Shown: one piece after another, positions 9,018 through 54,887 of the stretch
Layout of the letters: each line of letters starts with the position of its first letter
How positions within the stretch are numbered: position 1 is the stretch's first letter
From: Archaeoglobus sp. JdFR-24
GTDB lineage: Archaea; Halobacteriota; Archaeoglobi; Archaeoglobales; Archaeoglobaceae
Direction: 5' to 3'
Assembly (NCBI GenBank): GCA_002011215.1
Contig: MTML01000137.1
Location: forward strand, 41,182 to 105,181
DNA: 64,000 nt
Notes under the pieces: model-generated
What the model was told of the DNA's origin: nothing
What the model saw: only the letters and a program-made list of their open reading frames with translations
Databases searched by the model: none
Made by a program: the position numbers and the translations under genes

Positions 9018-9065
9018 TGTGGGTGTTTGAATGGGACTTAAACCAATCAGAGTGGGGGTGGTAAG

Positions 9066-10166
9066 ATGAACATTAAATGGCTCCTCCAGGCAACCTCATC
9101 CTCAGATCTTAAAACAAAATTGTCACTTTTAAGGGAGGCAATTCCTAAAATTGGTAGGTCTGATGATATCGTGAAATGTATGCTCTGTCCGAACATGTGC
9201 CTCCATGTCTGTCCGGTTTTTGATGCTGAAAGGAGATTAACCGTTTCACCATCAACCAAATCCAGACTTGCCTTTTTCAGCAAGGAAGGTGAGAATGTTG
9301 GTGATGCTATCTGGCGATGTGTTCCCTGTGATGCCTGCAAGGAAGTCTGTCCCATGGACATTAGTGTTAATGAATCTCTGAAGAGTGTGAGAGAAGATGT
9401 ATGTGCTGCAGACGATGAACCTGAACATGTAAAATTCACCTTTGTATCCTTCGAGAGCAGGATGAAGAGAGATGTTAAACTCATACCTGAGCGAACGGGA
9501 AGAATCCTTTATTTCCCGGGATGCAGAACGTTTGACACTCCTGAAGTTATCAGGTCAACTTACAGGCTATTTGATTATCTGAACATTGATTTTTCATTCA
9601 AAAACGAGATTCTCTGCTGTGGAGCATACCTGAGTGAACTCGGTTATAAATCACAGTTCGAGGAGCATACTCTCAGAATTGCCAGTTATCTGAAAAAATT
9701 TGATGGTGTTGTGAGTAACTGTCCCCACTGTGTACTGACCTTTAGGAATCATTACGGTGTTGAGGCAATGCATACTGTCGAGTTAATATATACGTTCGTT
9801 GATAGATTTGAGCACCTATCCAATAGCCATCCTGACAGGTATGTATATCACGATCCGTGTATCCTGGCAAGAAAACTTGGAGTTGTAGAAGAACCCAGAA
9901 AGATTCTTCAGAAAGCTGGTGTTCAGCTTGGAGAACCAATATATTCTGGTAAAGACACATATTGCTGTGGATTTGGCGGTATATATCCGTATATTGATGC
10001 CACCATGGCGACAAAAATCGCTTCTGAGAGAGAAAAACATCTAAAAGAAGTCTCAGACAGATTGCTGACCTCATGCTCTGTATGCAAAAGAGCTCTTAAC
10101 GCTCTGGATATAACCGAATTACTGGCCCGATTAGTTGAAGAGCTCAACCAGCCGGAAAAGAAATGA
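9066..10166 (+). CDS. iron-sulfur protein with CCG domains (GlpC/HdrD type)
   Basis: A 366-residue electron carrier. Two [4Fe-4S] motifs are visible: C38-C41-C45-C49 in CMLCPNMCLHVCP and C85-C88-C91-C95 in CVPCDACKEVCP. Two cysteine-rich CCG domains follow (FPGC...ILCCG and HDPC...YCCGFGG). This is the architecture of GlpC, GlcF and heterodisulfide reductase subunit D. No membrane helices are seen. With the flavoprotein directly upstream it forms a GlcD-GlcF-like pair that would feed electrons to the quinone pool or a disulfide. A strong GGGGTGGT site precedes ATG 9066. Confidence 0.88.
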   Translation: MNIKWLLQATSSSDLKTKLSLLREAIPKIGRSDDIVKCMLCPNMCLHVCPVFDAERRLTVSPSTKSRLAFFSKEGENVGDAIWRCVPCDACKEVCPMDISVNESLKSVREDVCAADDEPEHVKFTFVSFESRMKRDVKLIPERTGRILYFPGCRTFDTPEVIRSTYRLFDYLNIDFSFKNEILCCGAYLSELGYKSQFEEHTLRIASYLKKFDGVVSNCPHCVLTFRNHYGVEAMHTVELIYTFVDRFEHLSNSHPDRYVYHDPCILARKLGVVEEPRKILQKAGVQLGEPIYSGKDTYCCGFGGIYPYIDATMATKIASEREKHLKEVSDRLLTSCSVCKRALNALDITELLARLVEELNQPEKK

Positions 10167-10393
10167 TAACTGGGGGATAGGCAGGAGGTGTATAATTGGA
10201 AAAACATGTACAAAAAATACGGTAAATCAGGTTGTGGACAACTTTAAACAGGAGTGAACCTGAGAGAACGTCTTCATTGGTGTTTGGGTTTGGTGTAGAG
10301 GTGCCTAAGTAAACAGCCATAGATATTATAGGGTAGAACAGTCTTAAATACTCGATAAATAGTTATTTATTCTTTAAAAAATACAATAACTTA
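10167..10393 (+). other. intergenic region with a ribosome site and gene-start remnant
   Basis: A strong AGGAGGTG (10184-10191 region) is followed by TTG 10196 and only nine codons before TAA 10223-10225. Continued reading in neighbouring frames gives short coding-like pieces with several stops. This may be the decayed start of a third gene of the upstream operon. Further on, CTTAAATAC (about 10344) and TTTAAAAAATA (about 10372) are candidate TATA boxes for the glycerol kinase gene. Confidence 0.3.
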
Positions 10394-11881
10394 ATGCGTA
10401 CATGTGTAATTGATACCGGTACCACGAGCATAAGGACTGTTGTTTATGAAGATCAAAAACAGCTCGATTTTCAAAGCGAACCTCTGACAAGATTTTATCC
10501 TCAACCGGGATTTGTGGAACTCGATCCTCAGGAAATCACGTTCAAAGTTAAGAAATTGCTGGACTTATCAATTGATAAATGGGATGTTGATGCAATTGCA
10601 ATCACAAATCAGAGAACGACATCAATTCTGTGGGATGCAAAGACCTCAAAGAATCTCTTTCCAGCCTTAACCTGGCAGGATGTCAGAGCCAGGCCGGTAG
10701 CAGACTCACTCAACAGGTTGTGGCTTATCCGATTTGGTAAGATTATTGGAAAACTTGCGATCGGAGTTTATAAGACCCTTCCATCTCTCAGGAATTCTCG
10801 AAGAATAAGGTATATGGTTACCATATCAAAACTCTCCTTCAAACCCAATCATGCAAGCGTCCATCTGATGTGGATGCTTCAGAACCTCAGGAACAGAGAG
10901 AAATATGACTTAAAATTTGGAACTATCGACACATGGATTCTGTGGAATCTCTGCGGAGAATATGCCACTGATTACACGAATGCCAGTGCCACAGGCATAT
11001 ATGATATATTTTTCAAAAAGTGGAGTGAAAACATCCTTAAAATAATCGGCTTTCCACCGGAGAGTCTGGCAGAGGTGAAAAACTCAGATTCCATCTTTGG
11101 AGAATATAAAGGAATTCCGATAGCATCTATAATTGCCGATCAGCAGGCATCCCTTTTTGCTCAGGACTGTTTTGAATTTGGAGACATAAAATGCACAAAC
11201 GGAACTGGAAGTTTCATTGACGTTAACGTAGGAGATGCCCCAACAGCCTCTCTGGGCGGTCTTATTCCTATGATGGCGTGGAAAACTGGTAGTGATGAAA
11301 AATACATGCTTGAAGGCTATGTCAGTTTTAGCGGTTCTGCTATGGACTGGATAAGGGAGATAGGCCTCCTAAACAGGGTAGAGGAGTCTTCAAAGCTTGC
11401 CTTTAGTTCGGTAGATGAAAAACTCCTTTTTGTACCATCCTTTGCAGGGCTTGGAACTCCCCATTATATAGAAGTGCCAGGAACTTTATGGGGCATTTCA
11501 AACAAAACCAGAAAAGAGGACATTGTAAAATCGCTGTTGGAAGCTCTATCCTTCAGAATAGCCGAGATAATAGGAATCATAAGAAGGGAGTTGAAAATAA
11601 CTTCTGAATCTATCAGAATGGACGGCAAGTTCTCATCAAATGATTTCCTTCTTCAGAGGGTGGCCGATGTCACAGGATTGAATGTGGAAAGAAGCAGATT
11701 TCTCGAAGGATCATCATTTGGAGCACATCTTATGGCAGGGGTAGCAATGAAGGAATGGGAAATGGGAGATCTTGTCTTTACACCTGAAAAAATATTTGAA
11801 CCCTCAAAAGACCTCAAAGAGAAATTTGAAAAATGGTCAAAACTGGTAGATGAGGTGAAAAGAATAGGCTGGCCTGATTGA
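10394..11881 (+). CDS. glpK: glycerol kinase-like FGGY kinase
   Basis: A 495-residue sugar/polyol kinase of the FGGY family. The N-terminal domain opens with CVIDTGTTSIRTVVYE (phosphate loop 1), then PQPGFVELDPQEI, ITNQRTTSILWD and TWQDVRA, phrases typical of glycerol kinase. The C-terminal domain has NGTGSFIDVNVG and GLGTPHY. It would phosphorylate glycerol to sn-glycerol-3-phosphate. The region near residues 110-155 is a basic insert unlike bacterial GlpK. The GlpA and GlpB-like genes on the opposite strand downstream support glycerol as substrate. Confidence 0.82.
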   Translation: MRTCVIDTGTTSIRTVVYEDQKQLDFQSEPLTRFYPQPGFVELDPQEITFKVKKLLDLSIDKWDVDAIAITNQRTTSILWDAKTSKNLFPALTWQDVRARPVADSLNRLWLIRFGKIIGKLAIGVYKTLPSLRNSRRIRYMVTISKLSFKPNHASVHLMWMLQNLRNREKYDLKFGTIDTWILWNLCGEYATDYTNASATGIYDIFFKKWSENILKIIGFPPESLAEVKNSDSIFGEYKGIPIASIIADQQASLFAQDCFEFGDIKCTNGTGSFIDVNVGDAPTASLGGLIPMMAWKTGSDEKYMLEGYVSFSGSAMDWIREIGLLNRVEESSKLAFSSVDEKLLFVPSFAGLGTPHYIEVPGTLWGISNKTRKEDIVKSLLEALSFRIAEIIGIIRRELKITSESIRMDGKFSSNDFLLQRVADVTGLNVERSRFLEGSSFGAHLMAGVAMKEWEMGDLVFTPEKIFEPSKDLKEKFEKWSKLVDEVKRIGWPD

Positions 11882-11942
11882 TGTACCTCAGAAGGAGAAC
11901 CTTGTGTTTCAAACAAATCAAATTTAAATCTCTAAAACCAAC

Positions 11943-12653
11943 TCAAATAATCAAATCCTTTATCCCCCTCACCGTGTCTTTCCTGACCTTTCTGTAATCG
12001 TAGGTTTTTGCATTTATATTTCCCAGTTTAATACCATTAAGATCAAACGGATTGAATTCAGACCTTCCACAAAAGTATATAAGAGTATCGCAATTAAAAT
12101 ATTCTCCATCAACCCGGACTTTTTCAACCCTCTCTCTACCCTCAACAAAAACTTCCTTCCCTCTCATGAGTAGAATTTCATATCCTCGCCTGTACATGAG
12201 TCTTTCAACTATCTCCAGGACAGGATCATCTCCCACAACAAGGACTTTTTTTCCAATCGTAAAACCCATTGAAATTAATTTTAGAGCAGTCTGGAGCGAG
12301 AATATCCCTGCGGGTCTGCTACCCAGAATATTGCAATTAAATGGTTGGTTATCGAAACATCCCGTACATATAAGCAACTCAGAATGATATTTTTTAACAC
12401 GTCCCACCATAACCAGAACATCGCCCAGTACCGTTCCCTTATGGATGGTAATCTCTTTTGTCAGTTCATCATATTCCTCAATATATTCTGCATAATATTC
12501 TCTCAGATCGGGAAGTTTTTTGAAAACTCCAAGCTCTCCACCTTCACATTTTGAATCAAATACTGTTGCGTTTATCCCGTTATCCCTGAGTAGCTTCGCT
12601 GTTAGAACTCCTGAATAACCACCACCTGCAATCAGAAAATCTGTATCACTCAT
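11943..12653 (-). CDS. compact GlpB-like FAD/NAD oxidoreductase
   Basis: A 236-residue flavoprotein of the pyridine-nucleotide-disulfide oxidoreductase superfamily. The N-terminal FAD motif is LIAGGGYSGVLTAKLL, followed by FDSKCEGGELGVFKKLPDL, and a second nucleotide-binding motif VLVVGDDPVLEIVERLM lies near residue 140. RPAGIFSLQTALKL is shared with the GlpB-like/HcnA-type partners found beside BFD-containing GlpA proteins. It is about 180 residues shorter than those partners usually are. ATG 12653 (with GAAGTGA upstream) starts 4 bases after the glpA stop, so the two are one operon. It probably shuttles electrons from GlpA. Confidence 0.75.
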   Translation of the reverse strand: MSDTDFLIAGGGYSGVLTAKLLRDNGINATVFDSKCEGGELGVFKKLPDLREYYAEYIEEYDELTKEITIHKGTVLGDVLVMVGRVKKYHSELLICTGCFDNQPFNCNILGSRPAGIFSLQTALKLISMGFTIGKKVLVVGDDPVLEIVERLMYRRGYEILLMRGKEVFVEGRERVEKVRVDGEYFNCDTLIYFCGRSEFNPFDLNGIKLGNINAKTYDYRKVRKDTVRGIKDLII

Positions 12654-12657
12654 AATT

Positions 12658-14043
12658 TCACTTCCACACAATATAGCTATTTTTGAAGTCTTTTCTTAAC
12701 TTCAAACCCCTTTTATGCATAATCTCAATTACATCTGGCATGCATTTTCTACAGCCCATTGAACAACCTGTCAGGTGTTTAATCTCATCAAAGGTTGATG
12801 CTCCATCATCGATAGTGTCGTTTATCTCCTGGAAAGTTACCAGATTGCAGTGGCAGACGAGTTCATCTTCAATGAAGTAGGGAATTTCCCTTTCACCGGT
12901 AAAGATCACTTTTTTAAAGATATTAACGTCTTTTTTAGCATCAGACTTGTAAGGCTTATTTTTGAGTTCAAGTCCAGAATTCCTTAGAATTCTCAAAACG
13001 AGCTTTGCTATGGCAGGAGCGGCAGTCAGTCCAGGTGACTGTATTCCTGCTACATTGATAAAATTTTTTACAGGTGAATTAATTATGAAATCTTTCCCGG
13101 CCATGGCCCTTACACCGGAATAAACTGCAATTGGCTTTTTTGGCATCTCCTTAAAGACCTTAGAGTGTTTCTCAATCAATCTCTTAACATCTTCGACATT
13201 TACGCTTCGATCCTCCTTATCTGATGCATCTACAAGGCTGGGCCCCCAAATAATGTTTCCATCAATCGTTACAAGTGCACCGCCCCCTTTGGTTTTTCTG
13301 TCAGGCTTTAACGGGATAGCAGCCATTATATGGTATGTGAAATCCCTGTCATCAAAAATAACATGCGCACCCTTCCCCGGTTCAATTTTGAAGGAGAAAT
13401 CTCCTATCATTCCTGCGATTTCGTCAGCATACAATCCTGCACAGTTTATCACGTATCGGGAGGTTATGGTTTCTCTGCCATCCGTTTCGGACGTTATTTT
13501 AAAAAAATCGCGCTCCCTCTCAATACCTGTAACCTCTCTCTCAAATCTGAATTCCACACCATTCAACTCGGCAAATCTTCTCGCCCTGAAGGTCATCTCC
13601 ACAGGATTCACAACTCCTGCATCCGGGAAAAAAAGTCCACCACAAACCTCCTCAGTGACATTTGGTTCCATGGAAATTATCTTTGATCTTGGAAGGTATT
13701 CAACTCTCAGGTATCTTGAGAAATAAAATTTTATAAGTCTGATAATAATGTTGGAAATACGGTTTCTGGCAATAAGAATCAAACCAACTCGCTTGAATTT
13801 GAATCCAAGCTCTTTTGCCTCATCATCCATCATCTTATTACCTTCTAAACAAAGTTTACCTTTAAGGGAATTGAAAGGAAGCTGAAATGGATGAATTATG
13901 CCTGAACAACCCTTTGTCGGGCCCATACCAACCGAAGGTTCCCTCTCCAGAACTACGACTTTTAAATCGTATTTAGAAAGCTCTTTTGCTATGAAACAAC
14001 CGATAACACCTGCACCAATAACGGCAACATCATAATCCTTCAT
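12658..14043 (-). CDS. glpA: glycerol-3-phosphate dehydrogenase GlpA type with BFD domain
   Basis: A 461-residue FAD-dependent oxidoreductase. The N-terminal GxGxxG motif is VAVIGAGVIGCFIAKEL, then GCSGIIHP, and a DAO fold runs to about residue 370 (YVINCAGLYADEIA, GIQSPGLTAAPAIA). The C-terminus carries a BFD-like [2Fe-2S] domain with CHC (LVCHCNLVTF) and GCSMGCRKC. This is the form found in anaerobes where GlpA works with a GlpB-like flavoprotein. It would oxidise glycerol-3-phosphate to dihydroxyacetone phosphate. Confidence 0.85.
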   Translation of the reverse strand: MKDYDVAVIGAGVIGCFIAKELSKYDLKVVVLEREPSVGMGPTKGCSGIIHPFQLPFNSLKGKLCLEGNKMMDDEAKELGFKFKRVGLILIARNRISNIIIRLIKFYFSRYLRVEYLPRSKIISMEPNVTEEVCGGLFFPDAGVVNPVEMTFRARRFAELNGVEFRFEREVTGIERERDFFKITSETDGRETITSRYVINCAGLYADEIAGMIGDFSFKIEPGKGAHVIFDDRDFTYHIMAAIPLKPDRKTKGGGALVTIDGNIIWGPSLVDASDKEDRSVNVEDVKRLIEKHSKVFKEMPKKPIAVYSGVRAMAGKDFIINSPVKNFINVAGIQSPGLTAAPAIAKLVLRILRNSGLELKNKPYKSDAKKDVNIFKKVIFTGEREIPYFIEDELVCHCNLVTFQEINDTIDDGASTFDEIKHLTGCSMGCRKCMPDVIEIMHKRGLKLRKDFKNSYIVWK

Positions 14044-36422: not shown

Positions 36423-37436
36423 CTATAACCCGATTTCGAGAGATCTGTTGGTTTCTCTTATGCTCTCTTCCTTGTCTTTCAGATCAAGCATCGCTCTTAT
36501 TGCATCGATGTTCTCGGGCACGACTATTGATTCCTGATTTATTGCCTGTGTAATATAGACTTCTCCATCCACCACACCTATTGAGTCAGCCCATACAGCG
36601 TTCTCGTATAGATCATATCTCATTCTGAGTTCCCTTGCATATTCGATTATTTTGGTAGTTGATGTGAAGCCATTATTGGAATCTATCAGCATGATCCTCG
36701 GTTCAGCTGATAGCACATCCAGGATATCGGATTCGGAAGCAGAAGCCTCGAGTTCGATAGCCACAGAATGAACATGCATGAGGGTGGTCGGAACTTTAAA
36801 GGCTGTTGTTACTATATTTACCTCAGGAAGGACTGATTGTACATCCGGTCCGTGATGGGAGGGCAGTTTAATAGGGTTTGGTGCAATTCCATTGACAAGT
36901 CCTTTTTTGTCCTCCTTGGGGTCGACAACCCTCCTGATCATCGTGGCCCTCACCTTTTTGATCGGGAAGTTTTTCATGATCGTGTAGATCAACCTTGTCA
37001 ATCCGGTCGTATTGCAGCTAACAACCCTCACGAATTGCTTTCCCACAGCCTTTTCGTAATTGGCAATAGCGTTGAATGAAACCTCAGCAACATCTTTTTT
37101 CTCTCCACCCTGAAATATTGCTTTAACCCCCATTTTTTCGTAGAGTTTTTTGTTCTCTGCACCAACCTTGTTCGGAGAACAGTCAATTACAATGTCAGCA
37201 TCCTTGAGGAGATCTTCAATGCTGCCCTCTACTTGCACACCCGCCTCCTCAAAAGCCTTTAATCTTTCAGGTATTGCGGCATACAGTTTATATCCTTTTT
37301 TAACTGCCATTTTCGCATCAAAATCCGGCTTTGTTTTTGTAACTCCCACGACTTTCATATCTGATTGCAAACTGATAGCATCAGCAACTCTCTTTCCGAT
37401 CGTTCCATATCCATTTATAGCAACCTTTACAACCAT
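36423..37436 (-). CDS. gap: type II glyceraldehyde-3-phosphate dehydrogenase
   Basis: A 337-residue archaeal-type GAPDH (NAD(P)-dependent, phosphorylating). VKVAINGYGTIGKRVADAI is the Rossmann motif and C141 in VVSCNTTGLTR is the catalytic cysteine. It acts in gluconeogenesis or glycolysis. Two ATGs are in frame (37442 and 37436); GGAGGG lies six bases before 37436, so I take that one. It follows the CooT-like gene by two bases, so the pair is co-translated. Confidence 0.95.
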   Translation of the reverse strand: MVVKVAINGYGTIGKRVADAISLQSDMKVVGVTKTKPDFDAKMAVKKGYKLYAAIPERLKAFEEAGVQVEGSIEDLLKDADIVIDCSPNKVGAENKKLYEKMGVKAIFQGGEKKDVAEVSFNAIANYEKAVGKQFVRVVSCNTTGLTRLIYTIMKNFPIKKVRATMIRRVVDPKEDKKGLVNGIAPNPIKLPSHHGPDVQSVLPEVNIVTTAFKVPTTLMHVHSVAIELEASASESDILDVLSAEPRIMLIDSNNGFTSTTKIIEYARELRMRYDLYENAVWADSIGVVDGEVYITQAINQESIVVPENIDAIRAMLDLKDKEESIRETNRSLEIGL

Positions 37437-37438
37437 AA

Positions 37439-37624
37439 TCATCCCTCCACTACGATTCTGTGTTCTTTCATGTCCATCAGGGTTATTTTACCCTCAACCT
37501 CGGAACTCTCACCAAGAATACCATAAAGTTTGATTTTTTCACCGTCAATTTCGATTCTTACAACGTCCTCCATTACAACAGTTTCTCTACCATTTTTGAG
37601 CAAAACCACCTTCGACTCACACAT
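37439..37624 (-). CDS. CooT-like small nickel-binding protein
   Basis: A 61-residue protein matching the CooT family: MCESKV at the N-terminus, VVMEDVVRIEIDG, KLYGILGESSEVEGKI and a C-terminal HRIVVEG. In bacterial CooT the Cys2 residues of a homodimer bind Ni(II), and the protein works in carbon monoxide dehydrogenase maturation. Here Cys2 is conserved. No CO dehydrogenase gene is in the window, and the gene is fused in an operon with GAPDH, so the partner is unclear. Confidence 0.82.
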   Translation of the reverse strand: MCESKVVLLKNGRETVVMEDVVRIEIDGEKIKLYGILGESSEVEGKITLMDMKEHRIVVEG

Positions 37625-37703: not shown

Positions 37704-39014
37704 TTAAACTCGCATCTGAAGCGCCTTTATCAGCTCAGGGATATTGTTTTCTTCAGCATACTTTCTGAGATCTTCACCTTTAACTGCAGCATCAATTGCA
37801 GCTCTAAAGGCTCTTGCTCCTGCAGCAGGACCGTCAGGATGGGCGTGAATTCCACCCCCAGCAGCCACAACCACATCTTTACCAAGCGTCTGGATTAATT
37901 TTGGAACAGTCGAAGGCACTATCCCTCCTGATGGCATTGGGAATACTGGTTTGATATCGTAAAACGAATATATGAGTGATTTTGCAACGGCCAGATATTT
38001 CTCCTCAGGAAATATCGCTTTCCCGTAGGGAGCGGGATAAACAACTATATCCGCTCCGGCAAGCCTCGGCAGTTTTCCGAGTATGAGATCTGATCTGATT
38101 CCGGAGAATGGAGATTCATAGTAAATTCCAGCACAGTCCATGTGGGCCATTATTGGAACTTTGATGCTTGGGTCCTCAGCAAGCTTTCTCAGCACAGGAA
38201 GCCCTGTGGCAAGATAATTCACAAGAAGACAGTTGGCACCCAGTTCAACAGCCCTGTCAGCATTCTCAAACACATCCGGGATATCATCGGAGATATTCAC
38301 AGCATAAAGTGTCTTCTCACCTTTTTCCTCGTTTGCTTTATCTATTGCTTCCATATATTTTGTCACTCTTTCCTCGACTGAGTTGAACGGTCTATTGCCC
38401 AACAGCTCATCATCCTTCACTATATCAACACCCCCTCTTGCAACCTCGTATGTGAGTTTTGCACCCAGGTCTGGCGGAAAGCCTGTACATGGTTTGATCA
38501 TGTTGTTAAGCAGAGGTCTATCATAAACACCAAGTACCTTTCTTACACCTTCAATTCCGAATTTCGGCCCTTTGAATCCTTTAACGTACTTTTCAGGGAA
38601 TTTTAAGTCGAGTAACTTGACCTTCCCTGCCATGGATATGTTTCCAATAACGGCGGTGAAGAGCATTGATATAGTGCTACCGATGTTATCGAAAGGAAAG
38701 GCGATCTGGACTATGTATTCTCTCCATCTAACCTCGTCGGGTATCATGAACTCGTAATCCGGTACTTCATAGATACCTATGACTTTGGCAACGTGCTTTT
38801 TCCTCACATCCGGTGACTCTCCTGGCACGGGAATCCAGGTGCCTGTACTCTGCTCTATTGCCATTATCTGTGAAATATCGTTTATGCTCAGCATTTTCGG
38901 GAATGACATGTAGTAGGTTGCGATTATGTAATCTTTACCTATTCCTTCAGGTAGTGCTTCTGGATTCGCCTCCAGATCTTCAAATCTTCTAAAAGTCAGT
39001 TTTGGTATCTCCAT
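37704..39014 (-). CDS. RuBisCO-like protein (large-subunit homologue, form IV-like)
   Basis: A 436-residue RuBisCO large-subunit fold protein. Metal-site residues are kept: K174 (K175 in spinach numbering), the carbamylated-lysine motif GVDIVKDDE with K200, D202, E203, K332 (K334), SGG at 362-364 and GGG at 386-388. E54, T59, W60 and N125 are kept too. However, C176 replaces K177, M292 replaces R295, A295 replaces H298 and V325 replaces H327. These changes and phrases such as VPIMAHMDCAG and YPAPYGK are closer to the RuBisCO-like proteins (for example MtnW) than to form III. Carbon fixation is therefore unlikely; an enolase/isomerase-type reaction on a sugar phosphate analogue is inferred. 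It sits 9 bases downstream of a saccharopine-dehydrogenase-like gene. Confidence 0.88.
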   Translation of the reverse strand: MEIPKLTFRRFEDLEANPEALPEGIGKDYIIATYYMSFPKMLSINDISQIMAIEQSTGTWIPVPGESPDVRKKHVAKVIGIYEVPDYEFMIPDEVRWREYIVQIAFPFDNIGSTISMLFTAVIGNISMAGKVKLLDLKFPEKYVKGFKGPKFGIEGVRKVLGVYDRPLLNNMIKPCTGFPPDLGAKLTYEVARGGVDIVKDDELLGNRPFNSVEERVTKYMEAIDKANEEKGEKTLYAVNISDDIPDVFENADRAVELGANCLLVNYLATGLPVLRKLAEDPSIKVPIMAHMDCAGIYYESPFSGIRSDLILGKLPRLAGADIVVYPAPYGKAIFPEEKYLAVAKSLIYSFYDIKPVFPMPSGGIVPSTVPKLIQTLGKDVVVAAGGGIHAHPDGPAAGARAFRAAIDAAVKGEDLRKYAEENNIPELIKALQMRV

Positions 39015-39023
39015 ATAACCACC

Positions 39024-40238
39024 TCATAACGGGAATATTTTTCCAGGATCGATCAATTTTTTGTTTCCGGCTTCATCGAAATATTCTATTATAAGGGGTA
39101 AATCCCCTCTACCACTGGATTTTAATACCTTTTGAGCGAGCATTAGTACATCTAATGGATTTAAGCAAGCTTCTGGTGGTAAAACTCCCTTTTCCGTTAT
39201 TTTTCCCTCTCCCATCAGCATCACTCCAATGGCAGCCGGAATCCCCGTCCCCTCTCCCATTCCCTGACCTTTAGAGCTGAGAGAGAAGGAATATTTTTCC
39301 CTCTCTCCATCTCTTTCTCCTTTAACAACCACCTTCAAACAGCCTACAGGCTCTTTAAAACCGGTCTTTTCAAGTAATTTTTCTCTTTGGGAAAGGATGA
39401 AAGCAACAGCAAATTCTAATGGAGGGATTTCAGCATCACCAACCTTGATGGGTTCAGTGTTCGTAATTCCAAGTCTGACGATGCCCTTGATAAGTTCTGC
39501 ATATTCTGGGGGAAGTACAAGCCCGAGATTGGTCACTCTTTTAACACCTTTTATGTACCTCGGCAGGGTAATGGTCTCCGGATGTGGATATGCGTACACT
39601 CTGTAAGTCCCGATTCCGGGAAACTCAACATCCTCTTCGAGCATTTTGCCGCTTTCCTCAAATAGTTTAACAGTTCTGAATTCACCATCCAGGTAAACGG
39701 GTATATCCATCTCCATTGAATGTATTCTGTGCTTTACGACAGCTGCTCCTTCTGTTGGTTCTCCACCATGGGCATGATAAATATCGACAGATTCTATTTT
39801 CATAAAACTCTCACAAAACTTAACAAGAACATTTGCAAGGCCTGGAGAACTTCCCATTCCTATCAGTGCAGAAACACCCTTTTCCCTTGCCACATCATGC
39901 AGTTTAAACTGTTCAATAGTTGCATCGAGGTCATCACAGACATCAACATAGTTCACGCCCTCATCAATCGAGATTTTAAGGATTGTAGGGCCATATTCAT
40001 AGAAAGGGCCGATGCAGTTAAGAACGACATCAGAATTTTTTATAACATCTCTTAATTGCTCGGAATCTTTTGCGTTGCATTTAACCGCACGCGCACTACA
40101 AGTGCATGAGGAGGCAACACCTTCAGCATAACTTATATTTATATCTCCAATTATGATCCTATCGAACTCACCGCTTGCATCAAGAACCTGCACTGCTGTG
40201 CTTCCGACTGTACCACACCCAAGAACAGTCACACGCAT
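39024..40238 (-). CDS. saccharopine dehydrogenase-like reductase
   Basis: A 404-residue protein of the saccharopine dehydrogenase/homospermidine synthase fold. It opens with a Rossmann motif (VTVLGCGTVGSTAVQVL), then VVLNCIGPFYEYGP, NYVDVCDD and IGMGSSPGLANVLVK. The C-terminal domain has GQGMGEGTGIPAAIGV and EACLNPLDVLML. Relatives make or split secondary amines of amino acids with NAD(P)H. There is no lysine pathway beside it, so the substrate is unknown. It is the first gene of a two-gene operon with the RuBisCO-like protein, and the pairing suggests a common pathway. Confidence 0.85.
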   Translation of the reverse strand: MRVTVLGCGTVGSTAVQVLDASGEFDRIIIGDINISYAEGVASSCTCSARAVKCNAKDSEQLRDVIKNSDVVLNCIGPFYEYGPTILKISIDEGVNYVDVCDDLDATIEQFKLHDVAREKGVSALIGMGSSPGLANVLVKFCESFMKIESVDIYHAHGGEPTEGAAVVKHRIHSMEMDIPVYLDGEFRTVKLFEESGKMLEEDVEFPGIGTYRVYAYPHPETITLPRYIKGVKRVTNLGLVLPPEYAELIKGIVRLGITNTEPIKVGDAEIPPLEFAVAFILSQREKLLEKTGFKEPVGCLKVVVKGERDGEREKYSFSLSSKGQGMGEGTGIPAAIGVMLMGEGKITEKGVLPPEACLNPLDVLMLAQKVLKSSGRGDLPLIIEYFDEAGNKKLIDPGKIFPL

Positions 40239-40315: not shown

Positions 40316-41158
40316 TTAAACCATTTCTGAGGTGAAAATCCTCCCAAATCGCTTTACAACTTCATATCCACTTTTAATTTCTTCATTAAAATCAATTTCA
40401 AGGAAAGCAGCTTTATTGAGTCCATAGGGTTTCATACATGAGCCAACTGTCAAAACCATTCCATCCTGTTCTACTTTAAGAACCTTATATGGTTGGTGGG
40501 ATCTGACTATCACCTCTACTCCGACTTCATTGAGAAACGCCTTTGTTGTTCTTTTCCCAAAAAAGTACATCACACCTCTCTTGAAATTCTCACCGTTCTC
40601 ATCTTTCTCCCATGGATCATTCCAGAGCATCTCAATGACCATTTCATCTGACGGATTTAAAAAATCCTCTTTTTTGAACTCAGGTGGATCCTCTCTTCCC
40701 TTTGTAGGAATTCCAGCGTGTATGAACCAGTATTTCTCCTTTGCAATAGCCGATACTGGCAGCTTCTCCCATAATTTATTTAGTCTTCTGTGAACTTCAT
40801 TGCTCCCATAATATTCTTTAATCTGGGAAGGCAGCTCATGGGGAACCACGGCATCGCTTTCATGATTGCCGCGAAGAAGGATAACATTCTGGTTTTCGTT
40901 AAACTTTTTCAGAATTTGGTAATAGCTCTCAACAGGCTCGTCCCCTCTATCTGCGTAATCTCCTAAAAATATGGCTCCATCCTTTATTCTGTTTAAAATG
41001 TAGCTTAAAGACTTTAAATCAGCATGAATATCGCCAATAACCAGACCCCTGTTGAACTCAACTACCATACATCTCTCCCCGGATAACTTAGAAATAGCTC
41101 TGTCGAGTTCCTCAAGAAAGTACTCTTCAGGAATTCTATGATTTGATGCCATTGACAT
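40316..41158 (-). CDS. PPP-family Ser/Thr protein phosphatase-like protein
   Basis: A 280-residue calcineurin-like metallophosphoesterase with the full PPP signature order: GDIHADLKSL, GDYADRGDE, LRGNHES, then a C-terminal HAGIPTKG and RSHQPY. These residues bind two metals and the phosphate. The order and spacing match the eukaryote-like PPP phosphatases that are scattered through archaea. ATG 41158 or 41152 are possible starts. Substrates are unknown. It is monocistronic, divergent from the FGGY kinase. Confidence 0.88.
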   Translation of the reverse strand: MSMASNHRIPEEYFLEELDRAISKLSGERCMVVEFNRGLVIGDIHADLKSLSYILNRIKDGAIFLGDYADRGDEPVESYYQILKKFNENQNVILLRGNHESDAVVPHELPSQIKEYYGSNEVHRRLNKLWEKLPVSAIAKEKYWFIHAGIPTKGREDPPEFKKEDFLNPSDEMVIEMLWNDPWEKDENGENFKRGVMYFFGKRTTKAFLNEVGVEVIVRSHQPYKVLKVEQDGMVLTVGSCMKPYGLNKAAFLEIDFNEEIKSGYEVVKRFGRIFTSEMV

Positions 41159-41246: not shown

Positions 41247-42785
41247 ATGAAATATATCCTCGCCCATGATGTGGGGACGAGCGGTAGCAAGGGCACACTC
41301 ATAGATATGAACTGCAATATAATCGCTTCAGAATCCGCTGAATATGAAATCATTTTTCCTGAGAAAGGGTATGCTGAGCAGAATCCTGATGATTGGTGGA
41401 ATGCTGTGATCAAAACTACAAACATAATCCTTGAAAAATCGGGAGTTAAAGGGGTAGAAATTGCTGGCATCGTTTTTTCCGCTCAGATGGCTGGCACTAT
41501 CCCTGTAAATAAAGAGGGAACGCCTCTGATGAATTGCTTAACATGGCTTGATACAAGGGCGGCAAAGCAGGCCAAAAAAATTGTTGGGAGTGGTCTTCTG
41601 AAAATATCAGGTTATACGTTGATACCTCTGATACAATTTCTGAGGATTACTGGTGGTGCTCCAGGACTTGCAGGGAAAGATGCAATCTCGAAGATCCTCT
41701 GGTTAAAAGAGGAAGAGCCGGAAATCTACAGAGATGCTTTTAAGTTTCTTGATGTTAAGGATTATTTGATTTACAGGTGTACTGGGAATTTTGTCACCAG
41801 CAGAGACTGCGCAAACATCACCTGGATGATGGATACAAGACCGGGAAAATTCTGCTGGTCTCAGAGCATTCTGAAAAGATACGGTATAGACAGATCTAAG
41901 CTTCCAGAGATTATGAAATCAACTGATATTGCTGGAAAGCTTACGAAAAAAGCTTCAGAGGAGCTTGGAATTCCTGAAGGCATCCCGGTGGTGAATGGAG
42001 CTGGAGACATGACATCTGCAGCCATTGGGTCGGGAGCTGTTCTTGATGGTGAAACCCATGTTTATGTTGGCACGAGTAGCTGGTTGGCAGCTCATCTCAA
42101 ATCGAGAAAAAAAGACCTGACCCATTATATGGGTAGCATATGCAGTGCAAATCCAGAGATGTATCTCTGTGTTGCAGAGCAGGAAACAGCCTCGGGTTGT
42201 TTGGAATGGATTAAAAGCAACATTGTCCGGGAACTCAGCTACAAGGAGCTTGATGAATTTGTGGAGAGTGTTGAACCTGGGGCAGGAGGAGTTGTGTTCA
42301 CACCATGGTTATTCGGTGAAAGAAGTCCGCTTGACGATCCGGATGTGAGGGGTGGTTTTTACAACTTAAGCCTTGAGCATGATCGAAGTCATCTGGCAAG
42401 GGCCGTTTATGAAGGTGTTGCAGTCAATATTAAATGGGCACTTGAGTACTTTGAAAAACTTGTTAGGGCTGGTGCGAATAGAGTTGATAAGATCTTTATA
42501 ATTGGGGGCGGTGCAAAATCTGAGGTATGGTGTCAGATTTTTGCAGATGCTCTTGCCAGACCGGTTATAAGAGTTGAAAAACCACTTGAAGCGGGTGCAC
42601 GGGGTGCAGCTATAATTGCCATGGTTGGTTTAGGATATTTGAAGGATTTTGAAGCGGTTAAAGAGTTAATCCATACTGAAAAAACTTTCTCTCCAAATAA
42701 AGAACATGTAGAAATTTACGAGGACATTCTCAGTGAATTCAAAAGAATATATAGCAAAAAAGTTTCGAGGAGGAAAAGGTACTAA
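41247..42785 (+). CDS. xylulokinase-like FGGY sugar kinase
   Basis: A 512-residue FGGY kinase. ILAHDVGTSGSKGTLID is the N-terminal phosphate loop, PEKGYAEQNPDDWWNA and CLTWLDTRA are substrate-domain motifs, and NGAGDMTSAAIGSGAV, EQETASGCLEW and FIIGGGAKSEVW belong to the C-terminal domain. It is closest in look to xylulose kinases but could phosphorylate another polyol or sugar. A second, different FGGY kinase (glycerol kinase-like) is at 10394. The start ATG 41247 has an AT-rich, TATA-like region 25-30 bases upstream. Confidence 0.85.
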   Translation: MKYILAHDVGTSGSKGTLIDMNCNIIASESAEYEIIFPEKGYAEQNPDDWWNAVIKTTNIILEKSGVKGVEIAGIVFSAQMAGTIPVNKEGTPLMNCLTWLDTRAAKQAKKIVGSGLLKISGYTLIPLIQFLRITGGAPGLAGKDAISKILWLKEEEPEIYRDAFKFLDVKDYLIYRCTGNFVTSRDCANITWMMDTRPGKFCWSQSILKRYGIDRSKLPEIMKSTDIAGKLTKKASEELGIPEGIPVVNGAGDMTSAAIGSGAVLDGETHVYVGTSSWLAAHLKSRKKDLTHYMGSICSANPEMYLCVAEQETASGCLEWIKSNIVRELSYKELDEFVESVEPGAGGVVFTPWLFGERSPLDDPDVRGGFYNLSLEHDRSHLARAVYEGVAVNIKWALEYFEKLVRAGANRVDKIFIIGGGAKSEVWCQIFADALARPVIRVEKPLEAGARGAAIIAMVGLGYLKDFEAVKELIHTEKTFSPNKEHVEIYEDILSEFKRIYSKKVSRRKRY

Positions 42786-50865: not shown

Positions 50866-51636
50866 TTAACTTTCCACCTTCTTTCCGAAAATCGCAGCCC
50901 CTATGGCTCCGATTATCTGTGGCTCTTCTGGAGTTTTAATCTCCATTCCCAGTCTATCCTCAAGAGCCTTTTTTACACCGATATTTTTGGCAACGCCTCC
51001 AGTCAAAACGATATCTTTTTTAATGGGGATACGGTGGGCCAAGGAAACGATTCTCGATGCAATTGCTTCATGAATACCAGCGATTATCTCTTCAGCAGAG
51101 ATGTTGTTTGCAATATGGCTTATAACCTCGGATTCAGCAAAAACAGTGCATGTACTCGAAATCTTTACTTTCCTCTTTGCTTTTAATGAAAGCTCTCCGA
51201 GCTTTTCAAGCTTCACTCCGAGAGCATTTGCCATCACTTCAAGAAATCTTCCTGTTCCGGCAGCGCATTTGTCGTTCATAACGAAATCAGCAACACCTCC
51301 TCTCTCGTTCAGGGCTATTGCTTTGCTATCCTGTCCACCAATATCTATTACCGTTCTGGCTGTCGGCATAACAAAAATAGCTCCTCTGGCATGGCAGCTT
51401 ATCTCGGTAATCTGTTTGCTGGCAAAATCAACGTTGTTTCTTCCATAACCAGTTGCGACAATCGCGTCTATATCTTCTTCAGTCAAACCCGCCAATCTCA
51501 ATGTCTCATCAAAAACTCTTTCAGCAGTCTCATTAAGGTTGGGAGATACCTTAATCACCTTATATGCCAGTATATCGGTATCCATAATCACACACTTGGC
51601 TGTTAGGGAACCAACGTCTATTCCTGCAGTAATCAT
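50866..51636 (-). CDS. 2-hydroxyacyl-CoA dehydratase activator (HgdC/BadG type)
   Basis: A 256-residue ASKHA-fold ATPase. GIDVGSLTAKCVIM is the phosphate loop; C124 (NDKCAAGTGRF) and C163 (SSTCTVFAESE) hold the [4Fe-4S] cluster that bridges the two subunits of the homodimer. It uses ATP to inject a low-potential electron into the dehydratase/reductase. The length is that of HgdC rather than BcrA/BcrD (which come as two different subunits), so one activator serves the system. It is the third gene of the operon, 125 bases after the larger subunit. Confidence 0.92.
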   Translation of the reverse strand: MITAGIDVGSLTAKCVIMDTDILAYKVIKVSPNLNETAERVFDETLRLAGLTEEDIDAIVATGYGRNNVDFASKQITEISCHARGAIFVMPTARTVIDIGGQDSKAIALNERGGVADFVMNDKCAAGTGRFLEVMANALGVKLEKLGELSLKAKRKVKISSTCTVFAESEVISHIANNISAEEIIAGIHEAIASRIVSLAHRIPIKKDIVLTGGVAKNIGVKKALEDRLGMEIKTPEEPQIIGAIGAAIFGKKVES

Positions 51637-51761
51637 GAAATCCTCCTCTCCATTTGTTAATTTAACTTTTAAGCCTCCAATCTTTTAACTTTCAAACTTT
51701 TTATCTCATCTGTTCTCATTTTTTATCTCATCTGTTCTTATCGATCTTTATTTCCACTTCT

Positions 51762-52946
51762 TCACTTTTCTCTCAGCATCTCAAGAAACGCCTCAAGTCT
51801 GGTTTGAACCTGTGCTCTGGAAAATACCCTTGAGTCTGTCATATCAGCTTCTATAATGACAGAAGGAACTTCGAGCATTTTTTGAATCTCATACTGACCA
51901 AAAGAATAGGGCTTGCAGCTCCTGTTGCTGTGTATCACAACACCATCAATATTATATGTGTCTATAAGTCTGTTTATTGCATCTACCATCAACTCTAAAC
52001 CTATGTTGAGGTAGATGAACGTATAAGTTTCAGCCATATTCCTGATGGGATCGGATTTTCCTAAGTTCAAGAAACCTGTCCAGGCATTGGTATAGGTGTC
52101 TGCTACAAGACAGGTATTGTGATCTATGAAAAATTCCGAAAGCCATTTTAATTCATACCATACAGGTATGTTATCCCAGAGAAGCCTGGATTCCTCATTG
52201 TCAACAGCGCTAATTTCGTTTTTTACCCTTTCCTCAAGTTCCTGGTACATTTCCATATAAAAATCAACAGGCACCTCCGTACCTCTGAGACAAACAATCG
52301 GAGCCATGTTAAGAAAAGCATCGAAACAAGTGAGGGGTGAAGGTTTGTGCCTGCCCATCAAAAGAACGTTCTCATAGGCCTTTACACCCTGAGTTGAAAG
52401 TGAGACGACTTCTCTGAATTTTGTATCACTAAAATCATTTCCTGTAAGCTTTTCAAGGAAATCTATAAAGTCATAAAGCTGTGATTCCACGTAGTCTATG
52501 TAGCTCTCTTTAACTTCTTTTCTTATGAAGGGTATATCCAGAATGAATAAAGGCACCTTGAACATTCTGCTGAGCACCTCATACCATTTGACAACAGTAT
52601 TGCAGATATTGTTACAACAGAACAGAAAATCCGGTTTGGGAAGTCCACCTACTGGGCTCGTCCCAGCAATAATAGATCCTATATCACACCTGGCATAGGA
52701 GCAGAGATCCTGTGAAAATCCCTCATTTTCTGCAATCTGTGAAAAATGAGGTCCAATTTTTGAGGCTCCAATCAGGGCCCCATGGTTTTCCGGATACACA
52801 GGATATATGTCCATAGTATATAAAAACTCGACGGGGGCTCCGCTGGTCACCCATGAAACGAACTCTGATTGCTTCCCCTGCATGTAGTAGCCAAGCATGA
52901 TCTCTCTCATCTTTGATGTTGATCTGAGCTTCTTTATCTTACTCAT
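51762..52946 (-). CDS. 2-hydroxyacyl-CoA dehydratase/benzoyl-CoA reductase-type subunit (larger)
   Basis: A 394-residue member of the HgdA/HgdB/BcrB/BcrC family (PF06050-like). Likely cluster cysteines are C82 (LCSYARCD), C110/C111/C115 (FCCNNIC) and C344 (HSNRSCKPYSFGQ). The ends of this and the partner subunit match (QTRLEAFLEML). The pair would bind a [4Fe-4S] cluster each and remove water from a 2-hydroxyacyl-CoA, or reduce an aromatic CoA ester, by a ketyl-radical mechanism. The substrate cannot be read from sequence. Its start overlaps the stop of the smaller subunit (ATGA). Confidence 0.88.
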   Translation of the reverse strand: MSKIKKLRSTSKMREIMLGYYMQGKQSEFVSWVTSGAPVEFLYTMDIYPVYPENHGALIGASKIGPHFSQIAENEGFSQDLCSYARCDIGSIIAGTSPVGGLPKPDFLFCCNNICNTVVKWYEVLSRMFKVPLFILDIPFIRKEVKESYIDYVESQLYDFIDFLEKLTGNDFSDTKFREVVSLSTQGVKAYENVLLMGRHKPSPLTCFDAFLNMAPIVCLRGTEVPVDFYMEMYQELEERVKNEISAVDNEESRLLWDNIPVWYELKWLSEFFIDHNTCLVADTYTNAWTGFLNLGKSDPIRNMAETYTFIYLNIGLELMVDAINRLIDTYNIDGVVIHSNRSCKPYSFGQYEIQKMLEVPSVIIEADMTDSRVFSRAQVQTRLEAFLEMLREK

Positions 52947-53947
52947 TCAACCATCACCATCTCATAAAAAGCTTCAAGTCTTGTTCTGAGCTGTTCACGG
53001 GAGGCAAGTGGGAATTCGATCTCAAGCAACAAAGTTTTTTTGCCCATGCTTTCAAGCTCCTTTTTGAGCTGAGGATAATCGAAGAAATGTGGTTCACAAA
53101 ACTTTAGAAGAAGGAATATGACTGCATCAACTTCTTCAGCTCTCTTGAGTATATATTTTATCCTCCGGTCATTTTCGTAATCCTTGGTTGGACAGGGCGC
53201 CTTCAGAAAGTATTTATCCGCCAGAAATTCTATGGCATCATTCATGTTTTTCAGTTCTCTCTCTTTTACCTCTGATTTAAAAAACCTTGTTCCACTACAC
53301 AAATCATCTACTATGAAAAAACCAGCCTCCTCAATAAGTCTGTAGATGTCGATAAAAGGACATACACTTCCAGTGACAAGTACTTTTTTCCCATTGGATC
53401 TTAAATTTCTGTATTCTTTCAGCTTTCTATTTGCTTCTGGAATAACAATCTCTGGATCCTCAACTTCTGTTTTGAGGATTAGTTCATAATCTGGCTTTAT
53501 ATTGAAGATGTTATCTAGGAGTTTCTCGAGCTGGCTGTATAATTTTATGCTGGTCTCCAGATCCTCGAAGGTTATCTCTTTTCCACTCCACTCTTCAAGT
53601 TTCGTTTTAAAATCAAAGAGCTCTTTGATGAAATATCTCTTGCTTTTATCATCTATTCTGGTGGGAAATTCGATATTGTAGACTGGCATGTTCGAATTTC
53701 TTTCCCATATGTCTGCAAGCCTCATGAGTGAATCACAGCTTCTTGTGAAAACAGCAGCCTCTACGTCAAGCTCACCTTTTAAAAGTCTCTCAAGACTACC
53801 CCTTACCTGAGAGCAGCAGTAACTTTGTATGTGTGCATTTGCAAGACTAATTGAGTCATCTGAAGATAAAATTCTAACTGGTGTGAACCCTGCAGCTTTT
53901 ATAATCTCCTTTGGAGTAAGAGTACAGAAATATCCAACTTTTTTCAT
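52943..53947 (-). CDS. 2-hydroxyacyl-CoA dehydratase/benzoyl-CoA reductase-type subunit (smaller)
   Basis: A 334-residue family member, first gene of the operon. Cluster-ligand candidates are C44 or C45 (QSYCCSQVRG), C71 (TRSCDSLMRL) and C284 (LLKFCEPHFFDYP), the three-cysteine pattern of the HgdB/HgdD group. KKTLLLEIEFPLASREQLRTRLEAF at the end (in two pieces) is also typical. It is shorter than HgdB (about 380) and lacks no core motif. It works with the larger subunit encoded next, in the same operon. Confidence 0.88.
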   Translation of the reverse strand: MKKVGYFCTLTPKEIIKAAGFTPVRILSSDDSISLANAHIQSYCCSQVRGSLERLLKGELDVEAAVFTRSCDSLMRLADIWERNSNMPVYNIEFPTRIDDKSKRYFIKELFDFKTKLEEWSGKEITFEDLETSIKLYSQLEKLLDNIFNIKPDYELILKTEVEDPEIVIPEANRKLKEYRNLRSNGKKVLVTGSVCPFIDIYRLIEEAGFFIVDDLCSGTRFFKSEVKERELKNMNDAIEFLADKYFLKAPCPTKDYENDRRIKYILKRAEEVDAVIFLLLKFCEPHFFDYPQLKKELESMGKKTLLLEIEFPLASREQLRTRLEAFYEMVMVE

Positions 53948-54194
53948 ATTATCCCTCTGTAGAATTTTCTGTCTTAAATGTTTTCTTAAAATCTTTTCTG
54001 TTATCTCTTTATGGATATGAATTTGGTAATTAATTTCATGTTGGATTGAAGTATGCTGTCATTTGCAAGTTATAGGAACGTTGGAGAAACAGCAATCTGG
54101 ATATTCAACAGTTCCTGTTTTTATGGAATTGGTACTGGAATGGAGGTACGTCGGAAGAATTAATATTTTAAAGCATAAGGTGAAATTTTTGGTT

Positions 54195-54887
54195 ATGAAA
54201 ACCATAGGTTTACTCGGGGGAATGAGCTGGGAATCGACAGTTGAATATTATCGTGTTATAAATGAGCTGACATCTCGAAAACTTGGAAAGCTTCATTCGG
54301 CTAAATGTGTCCTATATAGCTTTGATTTTGAAGAAATTGCCGAGAAGCAGAGGGAAGGGAAGTGGAAAGAGCTTGCTAAAATGCTCGCTGATGCTGCAAA
54401 ATCACTGGAAAAGGCTGGAGCTGAATTGATGCTCATCTGCACAAATACCATGCATAAGGTGGCTGATGAGGTGGCTAATGCAATTGAAATACCATTGATC
54501 AATATAATCGATGTTACTGCAGTGGAAATAAAAAATAAGGGTCTGGGGACTGTAGGCCTTCTTGGAACAAAATTCACGATGGAAGATCAATTTTATAGAA
54601 ATAGGCTTGAGGAACATGAGATTAAGACTTTAATTCCGGATGAACACGAAAGGGATCTTGTACATAAAGTGATTTTTGATGAACTTTGCAAGGGCATAAT
54701 TAAATCGGAATCCAGAAATGCATACATCAGAATAATAAATAATCTTGTGAATATCGGGGCTGAAGGCATAATTTTGGGATGTACTGAGATACCATTGCTG
54801 ATAAAAGATGGAGATGTTGACACTGTGCTGTTTAATACCACAGAAATACACGCAAGAAGTGCAGTCGAGTTTGCCCTTAACCTTTAA
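54195..54887 (+). CDS. aspartate/glutamate racemase family protein
   Basis: A 230-residue enzyme of the PLP-independent Asp/Glu racemase family. KTIGLLGGMSWESTVEYYRVIN is the characteristic N-terminus. The two catalytic cysteines are C82 in ICTNTMHK and C196 in LGCTEIPLL. It should racemise aspartate or a related acid. ATG 54195 is used because the family begins at MKTIGLLGGM; longer upstream readings add a non-family segment. AAGGTGA lies 12-18 bases upstream. It is divergent from the dehydratase operon, so a shared pathway is only suggested. Confidence 0.88.
   Translation: MKTIGLLGGMSWESTVEYYRVINELTSRKLGKLHSAKCVLYSFDFEEIAEKQREGKWKELAKMLADAAKSLEKAGAELMLICTNTMHKVADEVANAIEIPLINIIDVTAVEIKNKGLGTVGLLGTKFTMEDQFYRNRLEEHEIKTLIPDEHERDLVHKVIFDELCKGIIKSESRNAYIRIINNLVNIGAEGIILGCTEIPLLIKDGDVDTVLFNTTEIHARSAVEFALNL

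Follow-up and report, generated by a model that had tools for sequence, protein, structure and literature searches.

The gene at positions 37704-39014 on the minus strand of the window, that is, of the whole stretch of 64,000 nucleotides from the heat-loving archaeon Archaeoglobus sp. JdFR-24 analyzed here, encodes a RuBisCO-like protein (RLP) of 436 aa, which by its sequence is a form IV protein of a distinct, widespread clade outside forms I-III. Its pocket is, as far as the alignments tell, rebuilt and not decayed. Relatives of the gene stand in a conserved three-part cassette of RLP, FGGY sugar kinase and amine/carbonyl enzyme, which is new here. With moderate confidence, we propose that this form IV protein does not use ribulose 1,5-bisphosphate (RuBP), and that it enolizes or isomerizes a ketose monophosphate made by the kinase, as one step of a route on which an amine is gained or lost.

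The open reading frame is single and intact and is confirmed as real, its identity having been drawn from Pfam, trees, alignment and a fold model. The product matches the Pfam families RuBisCO_large (170.6 bits, cut-off 30.1) and RuBisCO_large_N (41.5 bits, cut-off 20.7). The fold model has a mean pLDDT of 80.5, and among solved structures it agrees best with two of Geobacillus MtnW, those of Chlorobium RLP and form III following closely. Comparison with four close relatives gives a dN of 0.08-0.19; dS is 4.1 in one case and not calculable in the other three, which is read as saturation.

The original prediction had described a RuBisCO homologue that keeps the metal-binding core and has lost several catalytic residues, and alignment with forms I, II and III agrees with it residue by residue. 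Kept are K174, K200, D202, E203 and K332 of the window protein (K175, K201, D203, E204 and K334 of RuBisCO) and the SGG and GGG loops; replaced are K177 by C176, R295 by M292, H298 by A295 and H327 by V325. The protein further retains E60, T65, W66, N123 and H294, which that prediction had not mentioned, nor had it mentioned the aspartate D293 that adjoins the lost R295 and occupies the position of A296 (presumably spinach numbering). Both of the stretches it had quoted were found in the protein and located from the sequence and the homologue alignment. The codons of VPIMAHMDCAG (residues 286-296) lie at 38127..38159 on the minus strand and hold H291, which is the kept H294, together with M292, D293 and A295 in place of R295, A296 and H298. 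Those of YPAPYGK (residues 326-332) lie at 38019..38039 on the minus strand; the stretch ends in K332, the kept lysine of loop 6, and V325 stands directly before it.

The same pattern runs through the best 120 of 3218 protein-search homologues, the window's own protein being among the 120. In this set, the R295 position is M in 119 and S in one, the A296 position is D in all 120, the K177 position is C in 116, D in three and N in one, and the positions of H298 and H327 are always A, S or T and V, I or L, respectively. E60, T65, N123, K175, K201, D203, H294 and K334 are constant in 120/120, and the kept residues vary only as W66 to F, E204 to K and G404 to A (one protein each) and S379 to G (three proteins). 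A scan of genome contigs gave 259 stretches encoding relatives of the RLP, and the best 80 loci were retained. These loci had been picked through the patterns EQSTGTW[VIL] and VPI[LM][AG]HMD, so that constancy in the locus residue table (80 rows, being the 81 loci including the window minus one whose ORF is without EQSTGTW; L087, with no usable ORF, is absent) is partly circular. The best-120 set, 23 Dehalococcoidia proteins and six Archaeoglobi proteins were chosen independently of both patterns, and the latter 29 match the signature except for D at K177 in four of the six Archaeoglobi; the fragments L193, L197 and L199 and the other RLPs L194-L196 (37-40% identity) were dropped from this survey.

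Chance or decay is an unlikely origin of these changes. A decaying or non-catalytic protein might be suspected from four replaced RuBisCO residues, and yet the replacements are near-constant across archaeal and bacterial phyla, the metal site is intact, dN is low and the neighbors are conserved, so that we give this explanation hardly any weight. A pseudogene was likewise rejected on the trees, the residues and the selection.

The phylogenetic position was taken from two unrooted trees, both drawn by midpoint. The first, a maximum-likelihood tree, has 51 rows, 32 of which are clade members, including the window's, hand-picked from the 80 loci and from genome G019; the second has 19 hand-picked clade members, two more MtnW-branch proteins and no form II sequence of Cereibacter, whose branch is long. 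IV-GOS, IV-AMC and IV-DeepYkr references are absent from both, and IV-Photo was compared by residues alone. The window protein and 31 clade members form one group in the first tree (93/98), and the clade has a support of 100/99 in the second. The clade and Priestia MtnW come together at 100/98 in the first tree, where the MtnW branch is long. Membership in form III had been set as the test against the original prediction, and both trees place the protein outside it, the sampled forms I-III being separated from the RLP clade plus MtnW at 100/98 in the first and 100/99 in the second. RuBisCO homology and fold, a tree position outside forms I-III and replaced RuBP-site residues are thus all present, as in the broad definition of form IV.

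Curated profile models do not name the protein. The two best are the MtnW NCBIfam models, which score 379.7 bits (cut-off 409) and 334.2 bits (cut-off 513.6), followed by the form III RuBisCO model TIGR03326 (268.7 against 497.45), a RuBisCO large-subunit subfamily model (250.2 against 438), the OiaX model NF042437 (200.2 against 700) and a further RuBisCO model (132.1 against 489); every score lies below its cut-off. Names listed for the homologues include "ribulose 1,5-bisphosphate carboxylase" and MtnW's "2,3-diketo-5-methylthiopentyl-1-phosphate enolase", which is equally doubtful.

Form III was rejected as an identification on the tree position, the replacement of K177, R295 and H327 and the missed TIGR03326 cut-off. 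The related explanation, that the RLP is a form III RuBisCO which still works despite its unusual residues, can draw on the kept K175, K201, D203, E204, H294 and K334, but the same three replacements, the tree position and the model score stand against it, and so does the gene content of the Archaeoglobi. A RuBisCO-family match is present in 52 of 59 Archaeoglobi genomes and a gene of the RLP clade in 10 of 59, and all 10 have, besides it, another RuBisCO-family gene with a higher score (272.7-299 bits); in the four that were aligned (L082-L085), this second gene is form III by its residues, with all tabulated residues intact. A working form III enzyme is therefore very improbable.

The clade itself is widespread. 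The genome closest to the window is that of Archaeoglobus sp. JdFR-27, whose RLP is 88% identical, and the best 80 loci from the 259 stretches belong to Archaeoglobi, Bathyarchaeota, Baldrarchaeota, Theionarchaea, Methanolliviera, Chloroflexota, Actinomycetota, Caldiserica, Bacillota and others. A match at E<=1e-60 was found in 27 of 393 Dehalococcoidia genomes, of which 22 have full-length clade members, two have fragments only and three have other RLPs (37-40% identity).

A cultivated organism is apparently included as well. Genome G019, which we take to be Archaeoglobus fulgidus, is a single contig of 2,178,400 bp with a clade gene at 1.425 Mb and a second RuBisCO-family gene at 1.469 Mb, which we take to be AF1587 and AF1638, respectively. 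The first of these genes (apparently AF1587, rbcL-1) encodes a protein of 437 aa that lies in the RLP clade and is 95% identical to that of L004, with the same dehydrogenase adjoining, so that the clade apparently reaches A. fulgidus through AF1587. In the excerpted text of a transcriptome paper, AF1587 is treated as a RuBisCO in the context of CO2 fixation and is highly up-regulated in cultures growing with thiosulfate and H2/CO2 (PMC3949148). An excerpt of another paper identifies AF1638 as RbcL2, a form III enzyme that has been studied (PMC4575112). The expectation that such a protein would easily be mistaken for a RuBisCO is borne out by the treatment of AF1587 in the former excerpt (PMC3949148) and by the homologue names given above.

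The nearest group in the tree is MtnW, the form IV-YkrW enolase of 2,3-diketo-5-methylthiopentyl-1-phosphate, with about 36-41% identity and the closest solved structures. R295 and H327 are lost in both MtnW and the RLP clade. However, Priestia MtnW has G at E60, K at N123, S at K334 and P at R295, whereas the clade keeps E60, N123 and K334, and two unannotated proteins of the MtnW branch also differ from the clade, with G, K, T and P at E60, N123, K334 and R295. The lysine at the N123 position, presumably the general base K98 of Geobacillus MtnW, is absent from the clade, where the residue is N in 120/120 of the best 120 of 3218 homologues. The earlier view that the protein is closer to form IV, such as MtnW, thus holds for the sequence and the tree; in the active site more of the RuBisCO residues survive than in MtnW, and there it does not hold. 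The residues at N123, E60 and K334, together with the two missed NCBIfam cut-offs, led us to reject MtnW as a name.

These data bear on a role in methylthioadenosine or 5'-deoxyadenosine salvage, in which the RLP would be an MtnW-like enolase or an isomerase of methylthioribulose-1-phosphate (MTRu-1P) like the Deep-Ykr enzyme of Rhodospirillum rubrum. Its grouping with MtnW-type proteins and its best solved relatives are consistent with such a role, and the loss of R295 would suit a neutral methyl or methylthio end. We take AF1587 to be classed in IV-DeepYkr, the group of the R. rubrum enzyme. That enzyme, compared here by its description in an excerpt, is an MTRu-1P 1,3-isomerase whose substrate, a ketose-1-phosphate, is neutral at its far end; it works also without O2, and its pathway, as described there, has no FGGY kinase (PMC4958253). 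The salvage role is nevertheless unlikely in our view, since MtnW's lysine is absent and its two models remain below their cut-offs. Further, no methionine-salvage (mtn) gene was found among the scanned neighbors of the window RLP or of its relatives, a subset of all neighbors; the Priestia mtnW gene is followed by a methionine-salvage phosphatase, in contrast to the FGGY kinase and amine enzyme near the RLP, which fit the known salvage routes poorly.

Other form IV groups differ from the clade in other marks. The Chlorobium RLP and R. palustris RLP2 (1ykw/1tel and 2qyg), presumably IV-Photo, share E60, W66 and K175 with it, but have Q at T65, E at N123, F at R295 and R at K334. Like the clade, OiaX and the RLPs that neighbor four-carbon acid sugar kinases (presumably of the DUF1537 type) keep K334, and in five records a sugar kinase adjoins the RLP; they differ from it in keeping R295, in having F for W66, in forming a separate branch and in the family of the kinase, as read from flanks of 300 bp and, once, of 4 kb. 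Since the marks of MtnW, IV-Photo and the OiaX type all differ from those of the clade, its residue set is unlike that of every group tested. Two sets of RLPs outside the clade were noted. Those of L111, L112, L115, L117 and L118 belong to another group, are plasmid-borne and lie beside four-carbon acid sugar kinases; they have S or N at K177 and W or F at H298, and one is in a haloarchaeon. The RLP at L200:3422-4714 (Dehalococcoidia genome G115) has E at N123 and keeps R295, E60 and K334; its tree group is that of the OiaX-type proteins, and its best sequence match is to IV-Photo structures.

In RuBisCO, the E60-K334 pair positions CO2, and both residues are intact in 120/120 of the best 120 of 3218 homologues. 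The RLP might hence handle CO2 by carboxylating or decarboxylating a different sugar acid with a single phosphate, in the manner of OiaX (3-oxo-isoapionate-4-phosphate decarboxylase). In OiaX, K334 is likewise kept and E60 is replaced by D, whereas both residues are lost in MtnW, which does not act on CO2. The up-regulation of AF1587 with thiosulfate and H2/CO2 points the same way, but it could stem from many causes. R295 is kept by OiaX and by the RLPs beside four-carbon acid sugar kinases and lost in the clade, the OiaX types stand on a separate branch, and the OiaX model falls far below its cut-off, all of which leaves this reading doubtful.

Immediately upstream of the RLP gene, on the same strand, lies a gene for a saccharopine-dehydrogenase-like oxidoreductase of 404 aa (39024..40238, minus strand) that ends 9 nt before the RLP start. 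It contains both saccharopine Pfam domains, Sacchrp_dh_NADP and Sacchrp_dh_C, its nearest solved relatives are 4ina, 4rl6, 8deb and 3abi, and it reaches 41.6 of the 800 bits of carboxynorspermidine synthase NF043000. Divergent from the RLP gene group, an FGGY sugar kinase of 512 aa (41247..42785, plus strand; Pfam FGGY_N and FGGY_C) scores 350.4 bits with the xylulokinase (XylB equivalog) model, under its cut-off of 380.25. Neither the kinase nor the RLP passes any equivalog cut-off.

The cassette was surveyed at 81 loci, the 80 fetched and the window, by tblastn on the DNA within 5 kb, at thresholds of 200 bits for the kinase and the dehydrogenase and 250 bits for aminotransferases; tblastn counts were preferred because gene calling had lost genes to shadow ORFs in GC-rich loci. 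An FGGY kinase is present at 62 of the 81 loci, upstream and on the same strand in 57, and directly adjacent upstream in 49. The two genes overlap by 4 bp in 11 of these 49, as is common in translationally coupled genes. An amine/carbonyl enzyme is present at 58 loci: the dehydrogenase at 35, a class III aminotransferase (c3) at 11 and a glutamate-semialdehyde-aminomutase-like aminotransferase (c5) at 12, of which two lie about 4 kb from the RLP in the opposite orientation and may be neighbors by chance. By this search, none of the 81 loci has two amine enzymes within 5 kb, with the possible exception, by gene calling, of L019, where a c3 gene accompanies the dehydrogenase. One type of amine enzyme is thus shown to stand where another stands elsewhere. 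Gene calling within 3 kb gave 60 kinases, 33 dehydrogenases and 10 aminotransferases of each type. The families of these neighbors were assigned from scanned representatives. At L015 and L018 (Baldrarchaeota), a further aminotransferase is inserted between the cassette aminotransferase and the kinase; that of L015 scores 345.2 bits with the HisC model, above its cut-off of 276.55.

Where the sequence extends at least 3.5 kb to either side of the RLP (51 loci), the kinase is present at 45, one amine enzyme at 41 and neither at two. Within 5 kb, no amine enzyme was found at 23 of the 81 loci (10 of these 51) and no FGGY kinase at 19 of the 81, and the Theionarchaea loci L017 and L028 have neither despite long enough flanks. 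Relatedness inflates the counts, as clustering at 75% identity reduces the 81 RLPs to 14 groups; in the 11 groups with full flanks, gene calling within 3 kb found the kinase in eight and the amine enzyme in nine. Kinase and RLP distances are correlated over 52 neighboring pairs (r = 0.85, with none of 2000 permutations as high), although shared genome ancestry would by itself account for part of this.

Within the Archaeoglobi, the ortholog of the dehydrogenase (at least 547 bits) is present in the 10 RLP-bearing genomes of the 59 and in no other; the best score in genomes without the RLP is 208.9 bits, and paralogues are never above 219. The link of the kinase to the RLP is loose in this group. 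Two RLP genomes have a relative of 62-65% identity, relatives of 43-49% occur in seven RLP genomes and nine non-RLP genomes, and RLP genome G027 has no kinase match. In open-licence PMC text we found no paper that joins an RLP to an FGGY kinase or to a saccharopine dehydrogenase.

Residues and neighbors together suggest how the proposed enolization or isomerization might proceed. The FGGY kinase would turn a ketose-like compound into a monophosphate. In RuBisCO, T65, W66, K334, G381, G403 and G404 serve the P1 phosphate, and R295 and H327 the P2 phosphate. The RLP would grip the phosphate of its substrate in the P1 site through the former six, the carbonyl and the enediolate would be coordinated by Mg2+ on carbamylated K201, D203 and E204, and K175, K201 and H294 would move protons to give an enolized or isomerized sugar monophosphate. 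As the P1, metal and proton-transfer residues are kept and the P2 site is lost, the simplest substrate would be ketose-like with one phosphate near the carbonyl. As R295 has become M and H327 V, and D293 has been added, its far end would be expected to be uncharged or positive, for example an amino group. Xylulokinase, the nearest model of the kinase, phosphorylates C5, so that the sugar might sit in the RLP in either direction. The amine/carbonyl step would fall to the saccharopine-dehydrogenase-like enzyme or, in other lineages, to unrelated PLP aminotransferases. The monophosphate substrate, the choice of an enolase or isomerase over a carboxylase, the part played by D293 and the order and direction of the pathway steps are our inferences. 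The carboxylate beside the lost arginine and the interchangeable non-homologous amine/carbonyl enzymes are no more than suggestive of amine chemistry. The simplest reaction, Mg-assisted enolization or isomerization, would resemble those of MtnW and the R. rubrum isomerase, as excerpts describe them (PMC4958253; PMC6302742).

A bolder and rather speculative version is an amino-ketose pathway, so far undescribed, of anaerobes in both domains, in which D293 would bind the cationic amine and the RLP would be the first enzyme of RuBisCO fold to act on an amino sugar phosphate. With E60 and K334 intact, it may even carboxylate or decarboxylate that compound.

Few RLP reactions are known to our knowledge, and the clade, spread over many uncultured archaea and bacteria, has been named both RuBisCO and MtnW. 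RuBisCO itself probably evolved from non-carboxylating relatives, according to an excerpt of a recent paper (PMC12663927). The clade adjoins MtnW and yet keeps RuBisCO residues that MtnW has lost, and its reaction therefore bears on the residues of the RuBisCO ancestor. The cassette, found in many anaerobic microbes, offers a concrete route to that reaction which can be tested with three proteins.

Two other genes flank the RLP group in the window. A gene for an archaeal type II glyceraldehyde-3-phosphate dehydrogenase (36423..37442, minus strand; cluster c34; NF003251 519.8 bits, cut-off 185) lies downstream of the RLP gene across a gap of 261 nt, and one for a calcineurin-like metallophosphoesterase (40316..41158, minus strand; cluster c31) lies upstream of the dehydrogenase. 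Both were set aside as pathway members, being RLP neighbors only in close Archaeoglobus relatives, and the metallophosphoesterase is probably lineage-specific in this place. In L017, L028, L055 and L067 (Theionarchaea and Aciduliprofundum-like), the RLP gene is followed after 12-13 nt by a gene for a c26 protein of 118-121 aa, which could be a partner subunit of the RLP; that of L055 matches HMG-CoA_red_N, with the C-glycoside deglycosidase beta subunit just below cut-off.

Farther off in the window, a second FGGY kinase, glycerol-kinase-like (10394-11881; 345.4 bits, below the cut-off of 590.35), adjoins a glycolate-oxidase-like protein (7629-9017), an iron-sulfur protein (9066-10166) and a glycerol-3-phosphate-oxidase-like protein (12658-14043), all below curated cut-offs. 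The stretch 7629-14043 is perhaps a group for the oxidation of glycerol or glycerol phosphate. At 50866-54887, a BadF/BcrA-type ATPase, two 2-hydroxyglutaryl-CoA dehydratase D-component proteins and an Asp/Glu racemase-family protein are encoded, which looks like a radical 2-hydroxyacyl-CoA dehydratase system.
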